A stretch of 64,000 bases of DNA from Methanolobus vulcani (GTDB taxonomy: Archaea; Halobacteriota; Methanosarcinia; Methanosarcinales; Methanosarcinaceae), in assembly GCF_900100715.1 (NCBI RefSeq), contig NZ_FNCA01000001.1, forward strand, positions 124,001 to 188,000, in the 5' to 3' direction. Under the pieces are notes generated by a model, which searched no databases, was not told the DNA's origin, and saw nothing but the letters and a program-made list of their open reading frames with translations. Positions 28,360-51,550 of the stretch are shown piece after piece (within the stretch, counting starts at the first letter, position 1; every line of letters starts with the position of its first letter). A program made the position numbers and the translations under genes.

Positions 28360-30165
28360 ATGATGCTGGAAAGCAAATGTATAATTATCGCAGGAGAAGA
28401 AGCCGGACCCAAGTCCAATAAGATGGGGGGCATATGGAATGTCATTGATGCTGAAGCTAAAAGTCTTGCAAGTCTGATAGCAAAAGGAGTTATCGATGAA
28501 GTGCCTGCTCCGACCATAGTTGTTGCAGGACCGTACTACGGTCACAGCGGCTCAGACTGGAACAAAGGACTGAATCGTATCACGGATATGAGCGAATTTG
28601 AAGAGCTTGAACCAGAAGGTCCTATTTTCGAAGCCATCGAGAACCTGAAGATCAAAGGTATTGAAGTTTTTCCCGGTGTTGAGATAGTCCATGATGTGAA
28701 GATAATCTACCTGATGTTCAAGACAAATGATTTTTGCCGTGTCAGTGTGGAATACAAAGGAGAGGAAACATGCCTGGCAAATGCTGTAAAAGGAGAAGCA
28801 TTTGATTTGATAGGCCTAGATTCTATGACCTATGAGAGTATGGGCAATGGTATGGAATACAGCCATTATGTCAATCTATCCTATGCCATCTCAGAATTTG
28901 TAAAAGAGCTGGTAACGTCAAGGGATACAAGCTCTGAAGAATACCATGACAAAGCGATTTCCGAGTTCGCAGCATCTCTGATGCCAGCGGTTCACGTTTC
29001 ACTTCACTGTCACGAGTTCGGTGTATTCTATGCACTTGCAAGACTTAAGAAACTGGGAATCAGTGTAAAAAGCGTTGCAACATACCATGCAACACTTCCG
29101 GGAAGATCTTCAGGACATAAATCCATACAGAAGATAAGAGAAAATGATAGTTCCTGGGATAGCGGTGTGCCGGTCAACTTCGCAAAGCTGGAATCGTTAT
29201 CAGGATTTGCGGATGTTGTCACTGCTGTTGGAGATTCCACACGTAAGGAAATAAAACTCTTCTATGGAATTGATTCTATTGTTGTTCGAAATGGAATTGA
29301 CAACGATGAGGAAGAAGATATTGAATGGGAGAAGAAAACAGAGTGCAGGGATAGAATACAAAACTTCCTTTCGGATAAATTATATGCAGTTTACAATGGT
29401 AAGGTAATACCTCCTGAAAGGATCATACCCATTTTTTCAATATCACGTATCGAGATCGAGAACAAAGGTTACCCCGACCTGCTGGATTCACTTGTACTAC
29501 TTGACAGAATGGTCAAGGTCGAGATCGATGCAGGACATCTCGATGATAAATACCGTGTTATCTGCTTTATAATAGCAGCCCACGGACCAAAAACCAATCC
29601 ACCTGAGAATTTCCCTATAAACCTCCCGGAAGAAGTGTTGGTGGGTGAAGAAATACGCCTCCAGCAGATGATCAAAGCCAGAGGTCTGGAATGTTCGAAA
29701 CTTACTGACGGTAGCAGACATGTCTCAGCAGTCCTTTACCCGCAGTGGATATCTGACCATGACGGCGGACTTAATATGAGATCCGATGAGCTCATGGCAG
29801 GCTGTATTGCAGGGGTATTCCCTTCAAAATACGAACCATTCCTGCTTACGGGACTTGAAGCAGGAAAAGAAGCAACCCCAAGTATCGTTAGTAAGATATG
29901 CGGATTTAGTGATGCTCTCAAGACCCTCAAAAGACTTGTTATGGGAATGGGAGGTGTCATTGTTGTTGACAACATCAATATCCCGTATCTGGAATCAATT
30001 GCAGACTACGCGCTTGCAATGGATTATTTCATTGACACATTCACCGATGATAAGGTTAAGTATAACCTTCTTTGCCAGGAAGCAAATCTCCTTGCAAAGG
30101 ACATGAACTGGGAAGAACCAATAAAGACGTATTATGAACTTTTAACCGGAACAAGAATGGAGTGA
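28360..30165 (+). CDS. Glycogen synthase-like glycosyltransferase (GT3 type)
   Basis: The 601 residues have the layout of eukaryotic-type glycogen synthase (GT3), which elongates alpha-1,4-glucan from UDP-glucose. The N-terminal Rossmann half has the GGIWNVI donor loop (bacterial GT5: KTGGLADV), and HCHEFGVFYALARLK and ATYHATLPGRS follow. The C-terminal half has the acceptor/donor motif YPQWISDHDGGLNMRSDE, then AGVFPSKYEPFLLTGLEAG, the GT3/GT5 E-x7-E signature region. SD GGGAGACGGGA precedes ATG 28360. It is the first gene of a co-directional carbohydrate run; galT starts three bases after its stop. No ADP-glucose pyrophosphorylase is in the window, consistent with UDP-glucose use (inference). 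Confidence 0.82.
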   Translation: MMLESKCIIIAGEEAGPKSNKMGGIWNVIDAEAKSLASLIAKGVIDEVPAPTIVVAGPYYGHSGSDWNKGLNRITDMSEFEELEPEGPIFEAIENLKIKGIEVFPGVEIVHDVKIIYLMFKTNDFCRVSVEYKGEETCLANAVKGEAFDLIGLDSMTYESMGNGMEYSHYVNLSYAISEFVKELVTSRDTSSEEYHDKAISEFAASLMPAVHVSLHCHEFGVFYALARLKKLGISVKSVATYHATLPGRSSGHKSIQKIRENDSSWDSGVPVNFAKLESLSGFADVVTAVGDSTRKEIKLFYGIDSIVVRNGIDNDEEEDIEWEKKTECRDRIQNFLSDKLYAVYNGKVIPPERIIPIFSISRIEIENKGYPDLLDSLVLLDRMVKVEIDAGHLDDKYRVICFIIAAHGPKTNPPENFPINLPEEVLVGEEIRLQQMIKARGLECSKLTDGSRHVSAVLYPQWISDHDGGLNMRSDELMAGCIAGVFPSKYEPFLLTGLEAGKEATPSIVSKICGFSDALKTLKRLVMGMGGVIVVDNINIPYLESIADYALAMDYFIDTFTDDKVKYNLLCQEANLLAKDMNWEEPIKTYYELLTGTRME

Positions 30166-31171: not shown

Positions 31172-32353
31172 ATGGGAAATAAATTAAGAATCGCCATGTT
31201 CTCATGGGAAAGCCTTAATTCCATAACCGTTGGCGGACTGGCACCCCATGTAACCGAGCTTTCAGAAGCTCTGGCACTTCAAGGACATGACATTCATATT
31301 TTTACACGCAATAAGGATATGTTGCCTTATGAGGTCATAAACGGCGTTCATTACCACAGGATATACCACGCCCTTGACGGCGGTATTGTCCAGCAGATGG
31401 ACAGTATGTGTGACTCAATGTACAGTGCATTCACTGAAGCCACCAATACGTTTGGGAAATTTGACCTTACACACGTACATGACTGGCATCCTGTAAACCT
31501 GGTATGCAGACTGAAAGAGGAATCAGGAATTCCTTTCATAATGACATACCATAGTACCGAATGGGGCAGGAACGGTAACAAACATGGCAACTGGTTGGAA
31601 GCCATGGAGATAAGCCACCGGGAATGGAGGGGTGGCTACGAATCTGCAAAAGTAATAGTCACATCCACAAAACTAAAAGATGAGATCCAGTACCTTTACC
31701 AGATCCCGGATTACAAGATCAGCATAATACCCAATGGCATACACGGGGACAAAATGAGGATGGATGTGGACCCTGGCAAACTAAAAGAAGAGTATGGGAT
31801 ACATCCATACGCACCTGTTGTTCTTTTTGTTGGAAGGATGAATTACCAGAAAGGTCCTGATCTTTTTGTGAAAGCTATTCCGGCAATTCTGGCAAACAAA
31901 TGGGACGTAAAGTTTGTCATTATAGGTGAAGGTGAAATGCGACCCGAATGTGAAAGGCTTGCACATGAACTGAAAGTTATGGACAGTTGTCGCTTCCTTG
32001 GTTATGTAGATGAATCCGTGAAGAAGAAGTGGATGAATGCCTGCAACCTGATATGTGTCCCAAGCCGCAACGAACCTTTCGGTATAATCCTTCTAGAAGC
32101 ATGGGATGCCGGGAAGAATATAGTTGCAACCGATGCAATCTCTCTTATTGATAATTTCAAGGACGGAGTCATAGTTTACCAGAATCCGGATTCCATTGCA
32201 TGGGGAATAAATCACGTACTTAACAATTATGCTGACGATGAACTTGGAAAAGAAGGTAAGAAACTCATAGGAACAAGATACAACTGGGACAACATAGCAG
32301 AATCCACAGTTGATGTTTACAATGAACAATTGCAACATGTCCGGGATCAGTAA
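31172..32353 (+). CDS. GT4 family glycosyltransferase (glycogen-synthase-like), copy 1
   Basis: This 393-residue GT-B enzyme has the N-terminal donor-independent motif FSWESLNSITVGGLAPHVTE (GGLAPHV resembles KxGGL of glycogen synthases), HVHDWHPVN and TYHSTEWGRNG. The C-terminal nucleotide-sugar half has FVGRMNYQKGPD and the E-x7-E signature PSRNEPFGIILLEAWDAGK. It is probably an alpha-glucan or maltose-1-phosphate/trehalose-type glucosyltransferase, but the donor is not readable. A close paralogue lies at 42345; many motifs are identical. It follows galT by 25 bases with SD AAGGGA and precedes corA by 30 bases. Confidence 0.87.
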   Translation: MGNKLRIAMFSWESLNSITVGGLAPHVTELSEALALQGHDIHIFTRNKDMLPYEVINGVHYHRIYHALDGGIVQQMDSMCDSMYSAFTEATNTFGKFDLTHVHDWHPVNLVCRLKEESGIPFIMTYHSTEWGRNGNKHGNWLEAMEISHREWRGGYESAKVIVTSTKLKDEIQYLYQIPDYKISIIPNGIHGDKMRMDVDPGKLKEEYGIHPYAPVVLFVGRMNYQKGPDLFVKAIPAILANKWDVKFVIIGEGEMRPECERLAHELKVMDSCRFLGYVDESVKKKWMNACNLICVPSRNEPFGIILLEAWDAGKNIVATDAISLIDNFKDGVIVYQNPDSIAWGINHVLNNYADDELGKEGKKLIGTRYNWDNIAESTVDVYNEQLQHVRDQ

Positions 32354-33483: not shown

Positions 33484-34197
33484 ATGTTTGAGATATATCA
33501 CCCACCGTTTACCACAGAAGCTGAAGACACTAAAATAATAGTTGAAAAACAGGGAGATGACCTCATATATAAGCGCCTGTTCAGAGGAAAAGAGGAAAAA
33601 GAACTTGTTTTGCTAAACAACGATGGAGACATAACAATAAATCCTATTGAACCGGTAAACCTTCCTGAAGCTATCACTTCTTTTCTACTTATAGAATTTA
33701 AAAGGTCAGCAATTATCCGTTCCGGGGATAAGAAAAAAATCTATCTTAAATTTCCTGTGGAGATAGGGGTCTTTATTAGTGACAAATCTGGAAATCATGA
33801 AGTGATCGATATTTTCACATTCAATAAAGTTAAGTACACACTTTATGGAAGCCATACACAGGGCATAATCTGCAGGCATTGGGAAAGCGACATATATACT
33901 GATGAGCCGGACACAGAGAAACTCTATGAAGGATTCATAGAACTGGATATTGCTAATGAATCCAATCACCAGATGGAGATCACAAATGCAATATTCAACG
34001 CCTATGGTATGAAGATCTACTTCGGGGATAAGAGACTTGGTATGAAAGCCAGTATGAAGATAATAAACAAGCTCCTTGCTGAAACGGATTTCAGTACTTA
34101 TCCTACAACATCCAGGTTCAAGCGTTCAATGGAACTCTACACAGCACGTAAACTTGCAATAACAAGCACTAAGGGGATCATGGAGTTTGGTATATGA
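33484..34197 (+). CDS. DUF432 family protein
   Basis: This 237-residue soluble protein has no signal or membrane segment and reads as mixed beta-rich with a helical C-terminus (MKIINKLLAETDF). It matches the archaeal DUF432 family in length and N-terminal start (MFEIYHPPFTT). No enzyme motif is visible. Its stop overlaps the start of the following mscS gene by ATGA, so the two proteins are translationally coupled, suggesting a regulator or partner of the channel. Function is unknown. Confidence 0.75.
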   Translation: MFEIYHPPFTTEAEDTKIIVEKQGDDLIYKRLFRGKEEKELVLLNNDGDITINPIEPVNLPEAITSFLLIEFKRSAIIRSGDKKKIYLKFPVEIGVFISDKSGNHEVIDIFTFNKVKYTLYGSHTQGIICRHWESDIYTDEPDTEKLYEGFIELDIANESNHQMEITNAIFNAYGMKIYFGDKRLGMKASMKIINKLLAETDFSTYPTTSRFKRSMELYTARKLAITSTKGIMEFGI

Positions 34198-35066
34198 GCA
34201 ATAACAGCACCACCAGCACAGTTTCATCATATATACCAGCACTCTCTGATCCGCTATTTCAGATAACAACAGTAATAGCTGTTCTTTTCTTTACAATATT
34301 GATAGCAAAAGGCATAACGATTTATTTACAGAGGTCGCTTAAGGATAAGATGGACAAGGAGCATCTGAATATCCTTATTAAGTCCATCTATTACGGATCA
34401 ATAGTTATTGCTGTGGTAGGAGTTATTTTCCCGTATCTTCAGATCAATACCTCAGGTCTCCTTGTCGCCGGAGGAGTTGTTGGTATAGTTCTTGGTTTTG
34501 CCAGTCAGAGTATCATGGGCAATTTAATTTCTGGAATTTTCCTTATGGTTGAACGACCCATAAAGATTGGGGACCAGGTTAATATTGATAATAAGCTGGG
34601 TTATGTTGAAGATATAAAGATAATCTCCACCATAATCCGCACCTATGATGGTCTTTTTATCAGGCTTCCTAATGAAACGGTTTTCACAACCAGCATAACA
34701 AATTATGTTGCAAACCTTACCAGGAGGTTTGAATATGTGGTTGGGATCCGGTACAATGATGATGCTGATGAAGCTATAAAGATCATCAAGGACATAATCG
34801 ACTGGGAACCTTTTGCTTTGGTCAATCCCGGACCAAGTATTTTTGTTGACACATTGGGTGATAACGCGGTCAATATCATTGTCAGAATATGGGCACCTGC
34901 AACACAATGGTATGATATGAAAACCAGGCTTCTCTGGATAATCAAGAAAACACTTGAAGAGAACGGTATAGAGATCGCATTCCCACAGAGAACGATATGG
35001 TTTGCCAGTGAACTGAACACCAGAAAGATGTCAGATATTTCAGAAACAGGATATGATGAGCAATGA
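34194..35066 (+). CDS. MscS family mechanosensitive channel (second copy)
   Basis: This 290-residue channel has a Ser/Thr-rich N-terminus, three hydrophobic segments and the Gly-rich pore helix GVVGIVLGFASQSIMGNLIS. It continues RPIKIGDQVNI and the MscS beta and alpha/beta domains, ending in a variable polar tail. It differs from the other MscS copy (22515). It overlaps DUF432 upstream (ATGA) and the first GH57 gene downstream (ATGA), which ties a tension-gated channel to glycogen-type enzymes on one message. Confidence 0.92.
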   Translation: MSNNSTTSTVSSYIPALSDPLFQITTVIAVLFFTILIAKGITIYLQRSLKDKMDKEHLNILIKSIYYGSIVIAVVGVIFPYLQINTSGLLVAGGVVGIVLGFASQSIMGNLISGIFLMVERPIKIGDQVNIDNKLGYVEDIKIISTIIRTYDGLFIRLPNETVFTTSITNYVANLTRRFEYVVGIRYNDDADEAIKIIKDIIDWEPFALVNPGPSIFVDTLGDNAVNIIVRIWAPATQWYDMKTRLLWIIKKTLEENGIEIAFPQRTIWFASELNTRKMSDISETGYDEQ

Positions 35067-36241
35067 AAGCCGTATGCGTTTGTTTTGAGGTACATCTGCC
35101 TTTGCCTTTGCGCTGGTACTGGCCAAGAGAAGGATACGGAGATGTCCATATAGAAAAATACTTTGACATGGAAAAAGCATTCCATAACTTCACAAAATTT
35201 GCCGCAAACATTGAAACATTAAATGAAGCACTGGCTAAGTCTATTGAGAACGGGGGTAAATACACACTTGATATATCCGGCGTTTTTCTTGAACAGTGCA
35301 AATGGGCTCCTGAAATAATAGAGGGATTTAAAAAACTTGGGAACAAGAATGTCTCATTTGCAGCCTCACCTTATTATCACTCCATATCATGCCTGTTTCC
35401 AAGCCTGGCTGAATTCAAAGAACAGGTGGAAATGGATATAGAAGTTATCCGGGATGTTTTTGGCACTGAGCCTGAAACTTTTGTAAATACGGAACTGCTG
35501 TTTGATAAAAAGATAATGAAGACTCTTCATGAAATGGGATTCAAGTGCTTTATTTCCGAAGGCTCACACAATATCATGAACGGATATGACCCCATGCATG
35601 TTTATGATAACGAAGTCCCGACACTTCTGAGACACATAAACCTGAGTGAGGATCTGGAGATAAAATTCTCAGATAAAGGATGGCCAGGATACCCACTTAT
35701 CGCTGACAAATTCGCATCATGGATATCAAGCATGAAAGGCGAGGTAATTACGCTTTACATAAAATACGATGCTATCAACACTCATCTTCAGAAGAATGAA
35801 GGAATACTCGAATTTCTTCATGAGCTCCCAATATGCCTGAAAAAACATGGCGTGAAAATGCTATTAGCTGAAGAGGCTGTGGAAAGTTTCAAAAAGACAG
35901 AACTTTCTTCCCTCGAATCAAAAACAACAGCACGTTATGGAATGCACAACCTGCTTGGAAATCATGCACAGCATCTTTTCATGCATGAACTTGTTGATAT
36001 TGGCGAGATGCTTGAAAAAATGGGCGATAGCGGAAAAAAAGAGGAACTAACAAAGATCTTCAGATACCTGCAGCAGAGCGAGATATTCCTGGAAATGAAT
36101 TCCGAGGAAAGAAGGCTTGGATATGAGAGAGCAGTAAATGATATTTCCATACTTTCAGACATCGAACGGGCAATAATTATAGCAGAAGCAACTGAAGCTG
36201 CAGAGAATAAATCTGCCGGGAAAAAGGAGGCTGCACAATGA
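35063..36241 (+). CDS. Degenerate GH57-family protein, probably non-catalytic
   Basis: The 392 residues align along their length with the next gene's GH57 enzyme. Region 1 is HLP instead of HQP (11-13). Region 2 reads NVSFAAS without the usual Glu. Region 3 keeps the nucleophile-type Glu144 (VNTELLF). In region 4 the acid/base Asp is replaced by Lys234 (IKYDAINTHLQ aligned to MDYETFGEHQW). The C-terminus ends in an Ala/Lys/Glu-rich helix (AAENKSAGKKEAAQ). The loss of the acid/base residue suggests it no longer cleaves glycosidic bonds and may serve as a partner, carbohydrate sensor or scaffold of the following GH57. It overlaps both neighbours by four bases (ATGA). Confidence 0.82.
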   Translation: MKAVCVCFEVHLPLPLRWYWPREGYGDVHIEKYFDMEKAFHNFTKFAANIETLNEALAKSIENGGKYTLDISGVFLEQCKWAPEIIEGFKKLGNKNVSFAASPYYHSISCLFPSLAEFKEQVEMDIEVIRDVFGTEPETFVNTELLFDKKIMKTLHEMGFKCFISEGSHNIMNGYDPMHVYDNEVPTLLRHINLSEDLEIKFSDKGWPGYPLIADKFASWISSMKGEVITLYIKYDAINTHLQKNEGILEFLHELPICLKKHGVKMLLAEEAVESFKKTELSSLESKTTARYGMHNLLGNHAQHLFMHELVDIGEMLEKMGDSGKKEELTKIFRYLQQSEIFLEMNSEERRLGYERAVNDISILSDIERAIIIAEATEAAENKSAGKKEAAQ

Positions 36242-37434
36242 ACTCCATCTGTCCTTTCTTTGAAGTTCACCAGCCATACAGGCTGAGGTGGTTCTGGCCT
36301 GACCACAAGAAAGGTTTTGACCGCTATTTTGATGAAGCTGTCAACAAGGAGATTTTCCATAAGGTTGCAGGTAAATGTTATATTCCGGCAAACAGGACAT
36401 TGCTGGAGCTTATTGACGACACTGACGGCTACTTCAGAGCAAGTATGTCTGTCACTGGGACTTTGCTCGAACAATGCGTGGAATGGGGAGAAGATGTCCT
36501 GGAATCATTCCGGGACCTTGCTGAAACAGGATGCATTGAATTTCTGGACGAGACATGTTATCATTCCCTTGCATCACTTTTTGAATCAAAGGATGAGTTC
36601 ATGGATGAGGTTAAAGAACACCGCAACCTCATGTCTGAACTTATTGGTGTGAAGCCACGAATATTCAGGAACACTGAGATGCTCTACAACAACAGTGTTG
36701 CCCACTTTGTTGCAAAACTCGGATATGATGCCATTCTGACAGAAGGTATTGAGAGTATACTTCATGGAAGATCACCTGACCATGTATACAAGGCAAGGCA
36801 CTCAAACATTGCAGTTCTGTTGCGTAACTATAAACTAAGTGATGATATCGGTTATCGTTTCTCATCCAGATGGTGGGAGGAATATCCACTAACGGCAAGT
36901 AAATGGGCAGACTGGGCTTCCTGGAACCATGGGGAGACCCTTAACATCTTCATGGATTACGAAACATTCGGTGAACACCAATGGGAAGAAACTGGAATAT
37001 TCGACTTCCTCAAAGCATTACCAGGAGAGGTAAAGGACAGAGGAATGCGTTTTCTTACACCATCTCAGACCATTGACACATACAAACCTGCAGGTGAGAT
37101 AGATGTAGGAGACTTTTCCACTATTTCGTGGGCTGATATTGAACGAGACACCAGCGCCTGGCTTGGTAACGATATGCAACGCCGCTGTTTTGAAGAAATG
37201 AAATTGCTTGAACCCTATGTCAGGAAAACCAATGACCCCGAACTGCTCAGGATATGGAAACATATGCTTACATCCGACCACTATTACTACATGAGCACAA
37301 AATGGCTTGGTGACGGTGATGTGCATTCATATTTCAGCATTCATAACTCACCATACGATGCAGCAGTAAACTTCATGGCAGCACTTAATGATTTCAAGTC
37401 CCAGGTTTTCAGAGCCCTTAATCCACCAGCATAA
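36238..37434 (+). CDS. GH57 alpha-amylase/4-alpha-glucanotransferase family enzyme
   Basis: This 398-residue enzyme keeps the GH57 regions: HQP (11-13), region 2 GCIEFL, region 3 with nucleophile Glu147 (RNTEMLY), and region 4 MDYETFGEHQW with acid/base Asp240. It acts on alpha-1,4-glucans as amylase or glucanotransferase; the activity cannot be assigned further. It lacks a signal peptide, so acts on intracellular glycogen. It overlaps the inactive paralogue upstream by ATGA. The last about 100 residues are helical, as in the GH57 domain that follows the barrel. Confidence 0.88.
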   Translation: MNSICPFFEVHQPYRLRWFWPDHKKGFDRYFDEAVNKEIFHKVAGKCYIPANRTLLELIDDTDGYFRASMSVTGTLLEQCVEWGEDVLESFRDLAETGCIEFLDETCYHSLASLFESKDEFMDEVKEHRNLMSELIGVKPRIFRNTEMLYNNSVAHFVAKLGYDAILTEGIESILHGRSPDHVYKARHSNIAVLLRNYKLSDDIGYRFSSRWWEEYPLTASKWADWASWNHGETLNIFMDYETFGEHQWEETGIFDFLKALPGEVKDRGMRFLTPSQTIDTYKPAGEIDVGDFSTISWADIERDTSAWLGNDMQRRCFEEMKLLEPYVRKTNDPELLRIWKHMLTSDHYYYMSTKWLGDGDVHSYFSIHNSPYDAAVNFMAALNDFKSQVFRALNPPA

Positions 37435-37477
37435 TAATATATTGCGTAATGTCATATAATTCATCTGGAGTTTGTGT

Positions 37478-38287
37478 ATGGTAAGAGATCTTTACATGTT
37501 CTCAAGAGTGAATGAGGAAGCAGATGTTATCTGGTTCAAGGTCGCATATGAGAACACAGTACATTCTGAAGCTGATATAACTTCTTTTTTTGCAGAGAAA
37601 GGACTTGATATTAGATTTGCATACCTGGATAGCTCGGAAGACCCGACAAAAGGCAAATATGTCATGTTCACAGAAGCTGAAAAAGGAAGAGATATCGGCA
37701 GTATTGCAGAAGAACTTGAAAAAATGGATGTTGTACTCTCGGTAAAATGGGGTTACTCTAAGAACCGGGCCATCCAGTCAGTAGATTTTCCGCTGCAGTT
37801 GCTAGGTAAAAGGGCAGTCATCATCAGGGCAAAGACCTTTGTTGATATTATCAACATTATGAATGAACAGGTACCCCAATCCGAAGGACTTCTTACCATG
37901 ATAGGAATCCGAAACGGTGCCGGAGCAGCCAGATACATGCAGGAGATGGTGGAGATGAATGATGACAATTTCCTTGGTCTTCTGGGAGAACTTCTCATGG
38001 CTGCTGGCTGGGGAAAAATTGAATATGACATCAATATTTTCGAACTTACCGGAATTGTGAGAATGAAAGATTCTTTCCTTGCTGATGAGTATGGAGAGAG
38101 TGATGTTCCTGTATGTGTTTATATTAGTGCATTTCTTGCAGGATACATATCAGAATGCCTCAAAAAGACAGTACAAGTAAGAGAATCAAAATGCAAAAGC
38201 ATGGGTGATGAAGTCTGTGAGCATGTAATTTCTGCTGCTCCATCAGGTGTGAAAATTGAGCACTTACTCAGGGGAGAGCTACATTGA
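37478..38287 (+). CDS. V4R-domain protein (candidate ligand sensor of the glycogen run)
   Basis: This 269-residue protein has an ACT-like N-terminal half (about 1-90, start MVRDLYMFSRVNEE) and a C-terminal V4R domain with the usual Cys cluster (ESKCKSMGDEVCEHVIS). V4R domains bind small molecules or metal, often with a regulatory role. There is no DNA-binding motif, so it would act through a partner. ATG at 37478 is chosen because CTGGAG precedes it. Its stop codon overlaps the TTG start of the glucoamylase gene (TTGA). Placement in the run suggests it senses a metabolite and controls these enzymes; this is inference. Confidence 0.75.
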   Translation: MVRDLYMFSRVNEEADVIWFKVAYENTVHSEADITSFFAEKGLDIRFAYLDSSEDPTKGKYVMFTEAEKGRDIGSIAEELEKMDVVLSVKWGYSKNRAIQSVDFPLQLLGKRAVIIRAKTFVDIINIMNEQVPQSEGLLTMIGIRNGAGAARYMQEMVEMNDDNFLGLLGELLMAAGWGKIEYDINIFELTGIVRMKDSFLADEYGESDVPVCVYISAFLAGYISECLKKTVQVRESKCKSMGDEVCEHVISAAPSGVKIEHLLRGELH

Positions 38288-40305
38288 TAAGGCAACCTAA
38301 TGCAATCCTTGGAAACAATAGATTACTTGTTACAATGGGTAAAAAAGGTGAAATTTTTGGGTATTACTACCCTGGGAGAGATTTTGCTCAGCATGTGGAA
38401 GACTCTCAATCATGTTTATACGATGGAAAAGGGGTTATCTGGTCCAATTCCCGTGAATGGGTTGCTGACCAGAAATACATCGAGAACACAAATGTTGTCA
38501 GTACAGAACTAGCACATCCAAATGGTCTTAAAATGAACATACTTGATTATGTTCACCCCAGACTACCGGTATTGGTCCGGAAATACAAAATTCGTTCAGA
38601 GAAAAGATTCAGTGGTAAATTCTTCTATTACTCTAATCTCCAAGTTGGAGAAATGAAAAAGAAGAACTCTGCATTCTGTGATTATGATTCTGGGCTTGTG
38701 GCGCAGTACTGGAAGAACTATTACATTGGAATCAGCTCAACTCCCATATTCAAAGAATGGCAGATAGGAAAAGCAATGGACACGATATGGTGGACAAATG
38801 CCAAGTATGATATGGAAGACGGAGAACTACAGAGAAACAATGAAGATATTGGCAACTTAAATTGTGCCGTTGGATGGAACATTGATATTGATGCATCAAA
38901 ATCAGCTGATTTTACAGTTTATATTGGTGCAGCTTCCAGAAGAACTACTCTCTATAGGAGAATGCGTGAAATTCAAACTGAAACACCAGAAAGCATATAC
39001 AATGATGTACAGGAAAACTGGATCAAATGGCTATCCAAAAAGAAGCTACTGGAACTTCCCGATTATATTGGCTTTGAGACTTTTAAGCAGGAACTACAAG
39101 CCGCATTTAATAGGTCACTTTTAACTCTGAGTCTGCTAAGTGATCCCATTAAAGGTTCATTTGTAGCTTCTCCTGAATTCGATCATGAGTTTGAAATGTG
39201 TGGAGGTTATGGATACTGCTGGAACAGGGACAGTGCAGAGATAGTGTTGTCACTTCTTAGATCTGAATACCCGGAGTACTGTTCACGGTTCTTTAAGTGG
39301 TGCAAAAACACCCAGATGCATGATGGTTCATGGTTCCAGCGTTACTGGCTTGATGGAAATACAGCACCTTCCTGGGGGAATTTCAGTTTTTCAACACAGA
39401 TAGATGAAACCGGTAGCACCATATTTGCAATGGACCAGTATTATCGCACACTTAAACATCCTGTGAAAGAGGAATTTCTGGACAGCGTCTGGGCTACCGT
39501 GTTAAGTGCCGCTGAATATCTTATGAGAAGAACTGCCGACGGAGTACACGATCCCTGTATCTGTTTATGGGAAACGCATTCAGGTATTTTCACTTATACC
39601 AATGCTGCAATTTACGCAGGACTTCTTAGTGCCGCCAATATGGCAATGGACTACAATGAAAAAGGACTTGCTGACAGATGGACAGAAAGAGCTGAATTTA
39701 TTAAGAAGACCACTATTGAGAGATTCTGGCTTGATGAAGGATATTTTGCAAGGGGAATAACCAATGGCCATCTTGATACTGCCATCGATGCAAGTATCAT
39801 GGGGACTTTTGTTCCTTTTAACATGCTCTCTCCTGAAATACCAGAAGAGAAGGCAATGATACAATCCATCATTGAGAACATAGAAAAACAACTAAGGGTT
39901 CCAGTAAGCGACCACTTTGGAATCAAGCGATATGTGGATGACAATTACATAGAAGGAAATCCATGGATAGTTACAACCCTATGGCTTTCAAAAGCATTGC
40001 TTGAAATGGCATCTGTTATTGATCATACTGCGGGAGAAACTGAGAATCGCGAGCATCGAAAACTTACACATGATGCATTAAAGTACATTCAGTGGTCTCT
40101 CAAAGGAACAACAAGTGCCGGAATGCTCCCTGAGCAGGTAAATAAATACACGGGCCGTCCTGCATGGGCTATCCCGCTTTGCTGGAGCTGTGCACTGATG
40201 CTGGATAATATCCTCCTGCTTGATAAAATACAAAGGAAAATCAACAGCTCAAAAAAAGAAATAGAGGACACCGGAATTACATATGATATTTTCAGACTAT
40301 CATGA
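38284..40305 (+). CDS. Glucoamylase (GH15)
   Basis: This 673-residue enzyme of the bacterial/archaeal GH15 type releases glucose from the non-reducing ends of alpha-glucans. An N-terminal beta-sandwich (about 1-260) precedes the (alpha/alpha)6 barrel. Motifs are GYGYCWNRDSAE, the catalytic-acid region with Glu430 (ICLWETHSGIF), and the catalytic-base region with Glu617 (GMLPEQVNKYTG). No signal peptide, hence intracellular. Translation starts at a TTG that overlaps the upstream stop, and the last 23 bases overlap the debranching enzyme gene. Confidence 0.9.
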   Translation: MIRQPNAILGNNRLLVTMGKKGEIFGYYYPGRDFAQHVEDSQSCLYDGKGVIWSNSREWVADQKYIENTNVVSTELAHPNGLKMNILDYVHPRLPVLVRKYKIRSEKRFSGKFFYYSNLQVGEMKKKNSAFCDYDSGLVAQYWKNYYIGISSTPIFKEWQIGKAMDTIWWTNAKYDMEDGELQRNNEDIGNLNCAVGWNIDIDASKSADFTVYIGAASRRTTLYRRMREIQTETPESIYNDVQENWIKWLSKKKLLELPDYIGFETFKQELQAAFNRSLLTLSLLSDPIKGSFVASPEFDHEFEMCGGYGYCWNRDSAEIVLSLLRSEYPEYCSRFFKWCKNTQMHDGSWFQRYWLDGNTAPSWGNFSFSTQIDETGSTIFAMDQYYRTLKHPVKEEFLDSVWATVLSAAEYLMRRTADGVHDPCICLWETHSGIFTYTNAAIYAGLLSAANMAMDYNEKGLADRWTERAEFIKKTTIERFWLDEGYFARGITNGHLDTAIDASIMGTFVPFNMLSPEIPEEKAMIQSIIENIEKQLRVPVSDHFGIKRYVDDNYIEGNPWIVTTLWLSKALLEMASVIDHTAGETENREHRKLTHDALKYIQWSLKGTTSAGMLPEQVNKYTGRPAWAIPLCWSCALMLDNILLLDKIQRKINSSKKEIEDTGITYDIFRLS

Positions 40306-42235
40306 AGGAACTTCAAAGGAATGGCTGATAACTAACGGCCTTGGAGGATATGCGTCTTCCACTGTGATAGGAACTAATACTCGAAAGTATCACGGACTGC
40401 TGGTTGCTTCCATGAATCCACCGGTAGAGAGAATGGTGTTGCTTTCTTCCCTTGATGAAGAACTATACACTGAAGATGGAACTTACAAACTCGCCGTTCA
40501 CAAATACCCTGGTACTGTTTACCCGAATGGCAACGAATACCTGATAAAGTTCATCACAGAACCTTTGCCAGAGTTTCTTTACAGGGCAGGCGGGCTGATA
40601 ATAAAGAAATATATTGTGATGGTAAACGGAGAGAATACTACTATTGTAAAATATGATATTGAAAATCCGGAGAAAAAGAAAGCTTTTCTCAAGATCCTGC
40701 CCCTGATAAACAGTAGGTCAATCCACCATCTTACCAAAGCTTCTGACATCGCTTTTTCTCAGCAAGCTGGAGAAAATAAAACTACAATTAACAATTCTCA
40801 TTTACAATTCAGTCTAATCTCAGACACGAGATATCAGGCAGATGAACACTGGTATTATGATCTTGAATATGAGATCGAACTTTCAAGAGGCTATCCTTAC
40901 CAGGAAGATAACTTCAATCCCGGTTATTTTGAACTTGAAATTAGTGATGAATGCTGTTCATGTTTTGTGGTTGCAAGCGCAGAATCCACGGAAAACTGGA
41001 AAAAAACAGATATTCAGACAATTGATGAATTGATAAAAAGGGAAGAAAAAAGGATTCAGGATATTGCAACATCAAGTTGTGAAAACGATAGCTTTTTGCA
41101 GAAACTGCTGGTTGCTGGTGACTCTTTTATTGTTAACAGAAAGAGCACAGGTGCCAGGTCGATAATCGCAGGTTATCACTGGTTTGCTGACTGGGGCAGG
41201 GATACCATGATATCACTGCCAGGTCTGACACTTGTAACCGGAAGGTTCGATGATGCAAGATCTGTACTATCTACTTTTGGGTCCAGTTGCAGAAGGGGCC
41301 TGATACCAAATCTCTTTCCAGAGAATCCGGCAGATTCCCCTGTTTATAACACAGTAGATGCTTCCTTGTGGTTCGTTCATGCCACCGGAAAATATCTGGA
41401 TTATACTGGAGACCTGGCATTCATTGAGAAGATGTGGCCAACTATCATTGAAATTGTGGATAACTATCGAAACGGAACTGACTACGGTATCATGATGGAC
41501 AATGATGGACTTATCGAACATTCCGGACAGCTCACATGGATGGATGCAAAAGTAGGAACCTGGGAAGTAACTCCAAGAAGAGGAAAAGCCTGTGAGATCA
41601 ATACCCTCTGGTATAATGCGCTTATCTATACTGCAAAGATGGGAGAAAAACTCGGTAAGGATGTGTCTGGTCTTAAAAAGATAGCTGAGATCACGGCTAA
41701 AAGTTTCAAAGAGAAATTTCACAACACCGAAAAGAACTGCCTCTATGACTGTATTTCAGGTCAAGGTGAAGATTGGAATGATTCTTCCATAAGACCAAAT
41801 CAGATCTTTGCAGTATCTCTTAGTCACACGATGCTGCCACATGAGATTGAAAAAGGAATTGTGGATATAATAAGTGAAGAACTGCTCACCCCTTACGGAC
41901 TGCGAACACTCTCACCTGCTGACAGCAGGTACACAGGATATTACAGAGGAAATACTAAGGAGAGGGATGCAGCTTATCACAATGGTACCGTCTGGCCGTG
42001 GCTGCTTGGACCTTATATCACTGCATATTCAAAGGTTTATCGGGATAATACCGGAACAAAAGATAAACTTAGAGATTTGCTGAAAGGAATTGAAGGGCAT
42101 TTGGACAATGCATGTATTGGTAGCATATCCGAGATATTTGATGGTGATAATCCCCATGAACCTGATGGATGTGTTTCTCAGGCATGGAGTGTAGCTGAGA
42201 TCTTACGTTGTTATGTCGAAGATATAAAGAAATAG
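40283..42235 (+). CDS. Glycogen debranching enzyme (amylo-alpha-1,6-glucosidase, GH133-like)
   Basis: This 650-residue protein is of the archaeal-bacterial GDE family. The N-terminal domain (WLITNGLGGYASSTVIG, then TRKYHGLLVA) is typical of this family, and the C-terminal (alpha/alpha)6 barrel carries WFADWGRDTMISLPGL, GQLTWMDAKVG and AYHNGTVWPWLLGPY. It hydrolyses alpha-1,6 branch points. It starts inside the end of the glucoamylase gene (23-base overlap), so the two exo/debranching activities are coupled. A 9-bp hairpin follows the stop codon. Confidence 0.9.
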   Translation: MIFSDYHEGTSKEWLITNGLGGYASSTVIGTNTRKYHGLLVASMNPPVERMVLLSSLDEELYTEDGTYKLAVHKYPGTVYPNGNEYLIKFITEPLPEFLYRAGGLIIKKYIVMVNGENTTIVKYDIENPEKKKAFLKILPLINSRSIHHLTKASDIAFSQQAGENKTTINNSHLQFSLISDTRYQADEHWYYDLEYEIELSRGYPYQEDNFNPGYFELEISDECCSCFVVASAESTENWKKTDIQTIDELIKREEKRIQDIATSSCENDSFLQKLLVAGDSFIVNRKSTGARSIIAGYHWFADWGRDTMISLPGLTLVTGRFDDARSVLSTFGSSCRRGLIPNLFPENPADSPVYNTVDASLWFVHATGKYLDYTGDLAFIEKMWPTIIEIVDNYRNGTDYGIMMDNDGLIEHSGQLTWMDAKVGTWEVTPRRGKACEINTLWYNALIYTAKMGEKLGKDVSGLKKIAEITAKSFKEKFHNTEKNCLYDCISGQGEDWNDSSIRPNQIFAVSLSHTMLPHEIEKGIVDIISEELLTPYGLRTLSPADSRYTGYYRGNTKERDAAYHNGTVWPWLLGPYITAYSKVYRDNTGTKDKLRDLLKGIEGHLDNACIGSISEIFDGDNPHEPDGCVSQAWSVAEILRCYVEDIKK

Positions 42236-49828: not shown

Positions 49829-51550
49829 TTATTTTAGAATAACCATGGAGTGAGCATCAAGATCTACTTTTACAAACATTGCTTCACCTGATTGTTCAAT
49901 TATGAATTGCTGCTCAGGACAAAGCAAATTCGTCATTTTCTGACCTTTGCTGTGAAGACTACTATCTATGATAATACAATCTTCCCCTGGTTCTGGATCA
50001 AGGTTCATTGCTACAAGAACTTCGCTTGTATCAAGTATGCGCGAATATGCCAGTGTATTTTTGCCTGATAAGGGATAAAAAAAATCTGTGCCATTTTCAG
50101 AAATTTGTCTGAAATACTGCCTTCCATATCTCAATGCGGGTTCTGACATTCTGATCTTTGCCACTTCTGATATCCCACAATAGATCGGATTTTCCGGATT
50201 GAAGAAATGATATCCTTGTGTCCTGAATGCTCCCCATTCACCACCAAACATACACTCACGGATATATGCATCATCTTCTCCACCGCCATCAAAACCCTGC
50301 TCTGTGCCGTAATAAATGCAGGGTATGCCCTGACTTGTTAGTAAATATGTCATTGCAAGAACAGCCTGCTGATGAATGTTGTTCCCATGCATGAAACGCC
50401 TGTATGGCCTTATCATCTGGTCATGATTATCTACGAAGGTTACAAAATAACGGCCGGCTTCACCATGGTCAGTATAAAGGTTCCTGAAAGCCTCATATCT
50501 GTTCCTGAGAACTTCAGGATTACTGAAACCTTTTATCACTTCCTCAAGCACGAAATACAGGGGAAAATCCAGTGCAGCATCAAGGGAAGGAAAACGTTCA
50601 TTGGTACCCGGAATACGACTGTTGCGGCCAATGTATTTCTGTATGGTTGTGTCATCTCCTACTATTTCCCCGAAAATGAAGAAATTGTGTTTGCCGATAG
50701 ACTTGGCATATTCCTTGATGGCATTACAGAAAATAGCTGTTGAACTGGACTCCAGATGCTTTACAGTATCTATCCTGAACCCATCTATATCAGTCTCTTT
50801 TATCCAGTATTTGTAGATCTTTATTAATGTATCAAGTACATCTGGTCTGCTTACATCAAGCTCTTTCAGAGTGAAGAAATCACCATTTACAGCCTGCTCA
50901 GGATCGTTCCAGTCAGTTATCTGACCTCGTCTTTTGTAACATTCAGGACTTTGAAGTTCCTGTGGCCAGACAGCATCGTTTTCACCAATACTATTGTGAT
51001 CATTATCAGTGGGAAAAGTACGCCATGCTCCAAAATCAAAAGGACCTGGGGCATTCTTCCAGTAATAATATGGATCGTCTTCGGGATATTCCCAGTTGTC
51101 TCCTGTGTGATTGATTATAATGTCCAGAATTACATACATATCACGACTATGAGCTTCTTTTACAAGCTCCTGAAGGTCTTCTAGCTTTCCGAATCTTTCA
51201 TCCACCTTCAGGAAATCCTGTATCCCATAACCATGATAGCTTTCATCTATTTCCTGTCTGTTACGGAATACCGGACTTAACCAGATGGCATTAGCACCCA
51301 GACCTTTGATATAATCAAGTCTTCTGGTTATGCCTTTGATATTGCCCCCCTGAAACTTCTTTCCCTGTGAAATATCAAGCACCTGCGGCTCTGATGAGTT
51401 GCTGTAAGGTTCTGTATCACCCACATTGTTGTCAAACCTGTCCACCAGCAAAAAATAAATGAACACATCCCTCCAGTCTGAAGGAGAAGGAAAAACACCA
51501 TTTTGAATATCAAAATTAATGTCTTTAACAGATCGGATATTTTCTCCCAT
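49829..51550 (-). CDS. Cytoplasmic alpha-amylase family enzyme (GH13)
   Basis: This 573-residue enzyme carries all four GH13 regions: DIIINHTG, GFRIDTVKHL with nucleophile Asp261, FGEIVGDD with Glu295, and FVDNHDQ. The N-terminus is DVFIYFLLVDRFDN and the acceptor region SYHGYGIQDF. It has no signal peptide, so acts on intracellular alpha-glucans (maltodextrins or glycogen), complementing the GH57/GH15/GDE set at 35-42 kb although it is apart from it. Exact product (amylase, neopullulanase, cyclomaltodextrinase) is undetermined. SD AGGGA is upstream. Confidence 0.9.
   Translation of the reverse strand: MGENIRSVKDINFDIQNGVFPSPSDWRDVFIYFLLVDRFDNNVGDTEPYSNSSEPQVLDISQGKKFQGGNIKGITRRLDYIKGLGANAIWLSPVFRNRQEIDESYHGYGIQDFLKVDERFGKLEDLQELVKEAHSRDMYVILDIIINHTGDNWEYPEDDPYYYWKNAPGPFDFGAWRTFPTDNDHNSIGENDAVWPQELQSPECYKRRGQITDWNDPEQAVNGDFFTLKELDVSRPDVLDTLIKIYKYWIKETDIDGFRIDTVKHLESSSTAIFCNAIKEYAKSIGKHNFFIFGEIVGDDTTIQKYIGRNSRIPGTNERFPSLDAALDFPLYFVLEEVIKGFSNPEVLRNRYEAFRNLYTDHGEAGRYFVTFVDNHDQMIRPYRRFMHGNNIHQQAVLAMTYLLTSQGIPCIYYGTEQGFDGGGEDDAYIRECMFGGEWGAFRTQGYHFFNPENPIYCGISEVAKIRMSEPALRYGRQYFRQISENGTDFFYPLSGKNTLAYSRILDTSEVLVAMNLDPEPGEDCIIIDSSLHSKGQKMTNLLCPEQQFIIEQSGEAMFVKVDLDAHSMVILK

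Follow-up and report, generated by a model that had tools for sequence, protein, structure and literature searches.

A tandem GH57 gene pair in a glycogen gene cluster

The window, by which we mean the whole stretch of 64,000 nucleotides analysed here, carries two adjacent GH57 genes on its plus strand. The upstream gene, A (35063..36241), encodes an α-amylase-like protein of 392 amino acids with an incomplete catalytic set, which we propose as a non-catalytic partner from its Pfam match, residue table and AlphaFold2 model. The downstream gene, B (36238..37434), encodes an α-amylase-type enzyme of 398 amino acids with a complete catalytic set. Both open reading frames, noticed as a tandem GH57 pair (35063-37434) in an earlier sequence-only reading, were confirmed at these positions, and both proteins belong to GH57 by profile match (PF03065; E 1.3e-57 for A and 1.9e-82 for B) and by fold. 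They are the only GH57 genes of this Methanolobus genome and share 28% identity over 406 aligned columns. The frame of A is uninterrupted, with 0 internal stops, and its product is 88% and 86% identical to those of the closest named relatives, Methanolobus vulcani and Methanolobus bombayensis, respectively. The two genes overlap by an ATGA (36238..36241, plus strand); the junction reads ...cacaATGAactcc, with the ATG of B at 36238 and the TGA of A at 36239-36241. Such overlaps are common in archaea and alone show coupled translation only. In the window A is also overlapped through an ATGA by the MscS gene upstream of it, at a junction that varies across genera, and DUF432, MscS and A thereby form a chain of ATGA overlaps (33484-36241).

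AlphaFold2 models were obtained with a pLDDT of 88 for A and 81 for B, the latter being low around residues 243-248 and 297-306. Both models matched GH57 crystal structures with a probability of 1.00 and a TM-score of ~0.5-0.7 by query length, namely 4-α-glucanotransferase, branching enzymes and amylopullulanase. In the model of A, the strand carrying Lys234 passes straight into a helix. Searching the PDB by sequence (phmmer and profile) yielded no GH57 match for A or B, and fold comparison alone found them.

The surrounding genes are arranged in the order GT3-like synthase, galT-like gene (named by sequence only), GT4/5-like transferase, CorA, DUF432, MscS, A, B, ACT-V4R, GH15 and GDE. On the plus strand, the GT3-like glycogen synthase lies at 28360..30165 (PF05693, 5.4e-15) and the GT4/GT5-like glycosyltransferase at 31172..32353 (PF00534, PF08323). 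B is followed by the V4R/ACT-domain gene (37472..38287, plus strand; V4R 6e-16, ACT 2.9e-6), which is coupled to the gene of a GH15 glucoamylase-type protein (38284..40305, plus strand; PF00723 2.8e-26; TIGR01577 5e-228, under the curated cut-off). The archaeal glycogen debranching enzyme, an amylo-1,6-glucosidase, is encoded at 40283..42235 on the plus strand (GDE_C 4.7e-137; TIGR01561 above cut-off). The 4-nt overlap of the ACT-V4R and GH15 genes (37472-40305) recurs as -4 nt in most genera examined and hints that these two genes form another fixed pair, in which the ACT-V4R protein may sense a small molecule on behalf of the glucoamylase. A mechanosensitive channel gene (MscS) sits inside a glycogen operon; the block CorA-DUF432-MscS lies ahead of A in two genera, Methanolobus among them, and not in most others. 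Further along the window, a GH13 α-amylase-domain protein of 573 amino acids is encoded at 49829-51550 on the minus strand; it falls under every NCBIfam cut-off among the models listed and occurs in some Methanolobus genomes only.

The active site of A is selectively damaged

We compared active-site residues in 80 A and 89 B proteins, using B numbering unless stated. By pairwise alignment, the CSR1 motif H11-L12-P13 of A stands opposite H11-Q12-P13 of B, Ser102 of A (TCA, 35366..35368) takes the place of the region-2 Glu105 of B (GAG, 36550..36552), and Lys234 of A (AAA, 35762..35764) that of the acid/base Asp240 of B (GAT, 36955..36957), while the nucleophile-type Glu144 of A (GAA, 35492..35494) is kept and pairs with Glu147 of B (GAG, 36676..36678), all codons lying on the plus strand. 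These differences had been read from the sequence beforehand, together with the overlap and the intact frame, and each of them held.

Across orthologues, two lesions are common to every A protein: the region-2 Glu is found in 0/80 (Ser in 76, Asn in 4), and so is the CSR4 Glu corresponding to E246 of B. Further positions are depleted, with E242 kept in 2, Gln12 in 6, Gly245 in 7 and Asp240 in 13 of the 80 proteins. Others are selectively kept, i.e. His11 (77), Asn145 (77), the nucleophile Glu147 (76), His247 (70) and His109 (69). In B, all these positions are invariant or almost so: the nucleophile Glu147 and the proton donor Asp240 occur in 89/89, Glu105 in 84/89 with Gln in the other 5, and E242 and H247 are likewise invariant in the 89 homologues. 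The catalytic core set is present in 83/89 B and in 0/80 A proteins.

The acid/base position of A is occupied by Lys in 31, Asn in 31, Asp in 13, Arg in 4 and Ser in 1 of the 80 proteins. Conservation of the Lys among orthologues, proposed earlier as a check, was thus not observed; Lys is a local state and hence not itself the functional novelty. Lys-type copies of the window's genus carry an Asp two residues after the Lys (KYD), and the Lys and Asn lineages have no single conserved replacement acid. The 13 Asp-keeping orthologues belong to two deep families and one genus of the window's family, plus one stray. The sequence-only reading had named retention of this Asp as evidence against a dead A; the Asp does persist in these 13, but the region-2 Glu and the CSR4 Glu persist in none of the 80. 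Both the nucleophile Glu and the Asp are kept in 10/80, six from family f4 and four from genus g8. These forms miss other pocket residues, His109 being replaced by Asn in f4 and His247 being lost in f4 and g8, with a CSR4 alignment that is locally uncertain, and no A among the 80 has a complete catalytic set. Judged by their residues, these ten orthologues could be active. The description of A as a probably dead copy therefore stands as regards the selectively damaged active site but may not apply to these ten. At the other extreme, the A copies of family f7 are ~329 amino acids long and have lost the nucleophile and CSR4, while still lying directly upstream of B.

According to published work on the family, GH57 enzymes use a Glu on β4 as nucleophile and an Asp on β7 as proton donor, and GH57 α-amylases are recognised by this Glu and Asp, a CSR3 starting with Arg/Glu, a Thr at logo position 23 and a Tyr-Tyr ending CSR5 (PMC6037648). 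B shows all of these (E147, D240, R144, T243, Y350-Y351) and in this resembles the Methanocaldococcus jannaschii-type α-amylase described there. A is without these signatures, having K234, V141 and A237 and no Tyr-Tyr; at the CSR5 aromatic pair, A proteins mostly have L/F and E/D. That paper counts 126 sequences, 60 of them archaeal, in the established GH57 'α-amylase-like' group, which is defined from sequence only (Janeček & Blesák 2011) and whose members, like A, are related to α-amylases but have one or both catalytic residues replaced. Judged by these criteria, A fits the group, as the Asp is replaced in 67/80 and the Glu kept in 76/80 proteins and as A is sister to the α-amylase-type B.

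At 122 positions invariant in B, A proteins keep the residue at 31, are fixed for another residue at 15 and vary at 76; positions conserved specifically in A include S102, H191, R291, Q338, I341 and R369. Judging from these alignments, A is constrained, but otherwise than B.

The A/B junction is conserved across Methanosarcinales

To place the pair in its order, 150 genomes of the Methanosarcinales were covered by protein search, with A and B told apart by how strongly they matched and by the orthology of the loci retrieved. GH57 relatives were found in 85/150 genomes, of which 79 have A and 6, all from family f3, have a B-type gene alone. Wherever the flank sufficed, B lay directly downstream of A on the same strand. 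Of 78 distinct pairs, 69 have a junction of -4 nt and the remaining 9 one of +2 to +5 nt; by contrast, the junction between B and the V4R gene ranges from -73 to 155 nt, and the other cluster junctions are not fixed either, V4R-GH15 excepted. The recurrence of -4 nt in 69/78 pairs is beyond chance. Class- and phylum-level profile searches located the A+B pair only in this order and, in a diverged version, in f7, one more family of the class; elsewhere in the phylum, the lineages examined carry B-type genes but lack A. In one f7 locus (L139:4236-5481) the B gene is interrupted once, by a TAG following codon 142. The TAG may reflect faulty assembly, genuine damage to the gene or a UAG that is read through; the gene of the close relative L140 is open. 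A was seen only beside B in the loci examined, and B-type proteins occur without A in one other family of the order and in much of the phylum, so that A is not intrinsic to the chemistry of B.

The conserved core across genera consists of A-B with (V4R)-GH15 and usually GDE. The archaeal GDE is present in 79/79 genomes with A, and among the rest of the 150 a match of similar strength is nearly absent (one partial match). GT3 follows A less strictly (68/79). Four genomes of genus g3 (G041, G085, G122 and G134) have neither A, B, GT3 nor GDE, all of which are found in other g3 genomes, amounting to a joint loss of the glycogen set; such variation has been reported within Methanohalophilus (PMC6491703).

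A is a maintained paralogue under purifying selection

In a tree of 50 sequences, the A proteins form one clade (100/100) whose sister group is the B proteins of the Methanosarcinales (95/90), with the B-type proteins of other archaea outside; A sits on a long branch of ~1.1 changes per column, so this sister relation is to be taken cautiously. That A was acquired by transfer from a different GH57 group is not favoured, given its placement next to the local B, long-branched as it is. A recent duplication specific to Methanolobus was ruled out, as the A clade spans three families of the order and a more distantly related protein occurs in a fourth family of the class. Mapping the states at the Asp position onto a tree of 169 sequences required at least 8 changes in all, implying that the Asp was replaced more than once. 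Asp loss in A is, on this reconstruction, secondary and repeated.

Median pairwise dN/dS was 0.073 for A and 0.047 for B, with a maximum of 0.12, in the 19 Methanolobus comparisons that were unsaturated; many other Methanolobus pairs were saturated at synonymous sites. A evolves at a rate somewhat above that of B and is, as judged by these ratios, under strong purifying selection.

A as a candidate partner subunit of B

The junction fixed across the order, the one-way dependence of A on B, the constrained yet incomplete A and the glycogen context together argue for a dedicated partner subunit. A is probably a working partner in glycogen metabolism, not a dying gene. Taken as a whole, our data are best explained by A being a dedicated non-hydrolytic subunit that forms a heteromer with B, a reading we consider reasonably likely. 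Short overlaps between genes couple their translation, and they are over-represented among the subunits of heteromeric complexes (PMC10666635). We envisage that a tandem duplication of a GH57 α-amylase-type gene yielded A before the families of the Methanosarcinales split; the Glu residues of region 2 and CSR4 would have disappeared from A first, and the acid/base Asp later and more than once. From the overlapping genes, A and B would be translated in step and assemble as a heteromer, in which the barrel of A and its partly kept -1 pocket (His11, His106, Asn142, Glu144 and His241 in A numbering) may serve to keep B stable, to hold a chain of α-glucan, or both, and B, with its Glu/Asp pair intact, would carry out the chemistry on glycogen. 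The data show the duplication and the sister relation, the selective loss of residues, purifying selection, the linkage and junction across the order and the setting in a glycogen cluster; heteromer formation, glucan holding by A and an effect on B are what we infer from these patterns. Alternatively, the pocket residues of A may be kept for folding alone. The 'deliberate partner' of the sequence-only reading is thus supported in part: A is a maintained paralogue with selective damage, durably and tightly linked to an intact sister gene, and probably has a dedicated partner role, for which scaffold, allosteric and glucan-sensing functions would fit alike.

The same partly kept -1 pocket would also suit an independent glucan-binding or glucan-sensing protein, co-expressed with B for glycogen and not in complex with it, and the ACT-V4R gene coupled to GH15 indicates that sensing modules occur in this operon. 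Replacement of the Y350/Y351 pair of B, however, removes likely substrate contacts from A, and a fixed A/B junction is more in keeping with proteins needed in a set ratio than with a free sensor; we regard this explanation as unlikely. Less probable again is an enzyme with altered chemistry, in which Glu144 would work without the usual proton donor, for instance by using an activated donor or a different acid. This idea draws on the nucleophile-type Glu in 76/80 A proteins, the KYD Asp described above, the 10/80 with both Glu and Asp, and the suggestion that catalytic residues may have shifted position in some pseudoenzymes (PMC10211241). It is at odds with the absence of the region-2 and CSR4 Glu from all 80 A proteins, an acid/base position that wanders over K, N, R, S and D, Lys and Asn lineages without a single conserved substitute acid, and an f7 relative without even the nucleophile and CSR4. 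As for a pseudogene decaying after duplication, the loss of catalytic residues and the somewhat faster evolution of A than of B would fit, but the frame is open in the examined copies order-wide, A-specific positions and the junction are conserved, and dN/dS lies far under 1 (maximum pairwise 0.12). Decay is therefore rejected by dN/dS, length and junction and contradicted by the selection and distribution data, leaving it a negligible probability.

Comparison with known systems and the question of glycogen branching

A precedent for the proposed subunit role of A is provided by the plant isoamylases, where ISA1 is the catalytic subunit of ISA1/ISA2 and absence of either protein destabilises its partner (PMC3787081). 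In both systems, which serve the metabolism of storage glucans, an enzyme acting on α-glucan is paired with a non-catalytic homologue; ISA1/ISA2, however, belongs to GH13 and its complex is proven, whereas A/B belongs to GH57 and its complex is inferred only. The analogy to pseudoenzyme pairs elsewhere that had been drawn from the sequence holds to this extent, since a homologous pair of one catalytically intact and one incomplete protein is indeed found together. Incomplete GH57 proteins were already known (PMC6037648); the new element is the coupled active/incomplete pair conserved order-wide. In that paper's account of the 'α-amylase-like' group we found no coupled tandem pair like A/B, nor did we find a description of such a pair in the literature searched, most subscription journals lying outside the search. 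Nor did this literature contain a characterised B-type enzyme from the Methanosarcinales.

A and B also share their fold with GH57 branching enzymes, the Thermus and Pyrococcus enzymes being among the best structural matches. These enzymes carry a BE_C domain (PF09210), which is absent from the genomes of the order that were covered (0/150), and the pair accordingly does not belong with them. A GH13 protein is absent from 53/79 A-bearing genomes. As GDE implies α-1,6 branches, and BE_C and GH13 are absent, another branch-maker is needed in those 53 genomes. Tentatively, the A-B heteromer itself might supply the missing branching activity for glycogen in the Methanosarcinales, with B forming the glucosyl-enzyme intermediate and A holding the acceptor chain, so that an amylase would become a transferase; we consider this doubtful. 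A 2024 review asks what branches glycogen in archaea that have a GH57 amylase and neither GH13 nor GH57 branching enzymes, and reports that a GH57-amylase mutant of Sulfolobus acidocaldarius is glycogen-poor (PMC11046441). The A/B pair bears on this question, and we found no mention of the pair in that review.

Catalytically incomplete GH57 proteins have stood on lists for more than 10 years without a function. Here, such a copy is locked to its intact sister across genetically tractable, well-studied methanogens, which makes its function directly testable.
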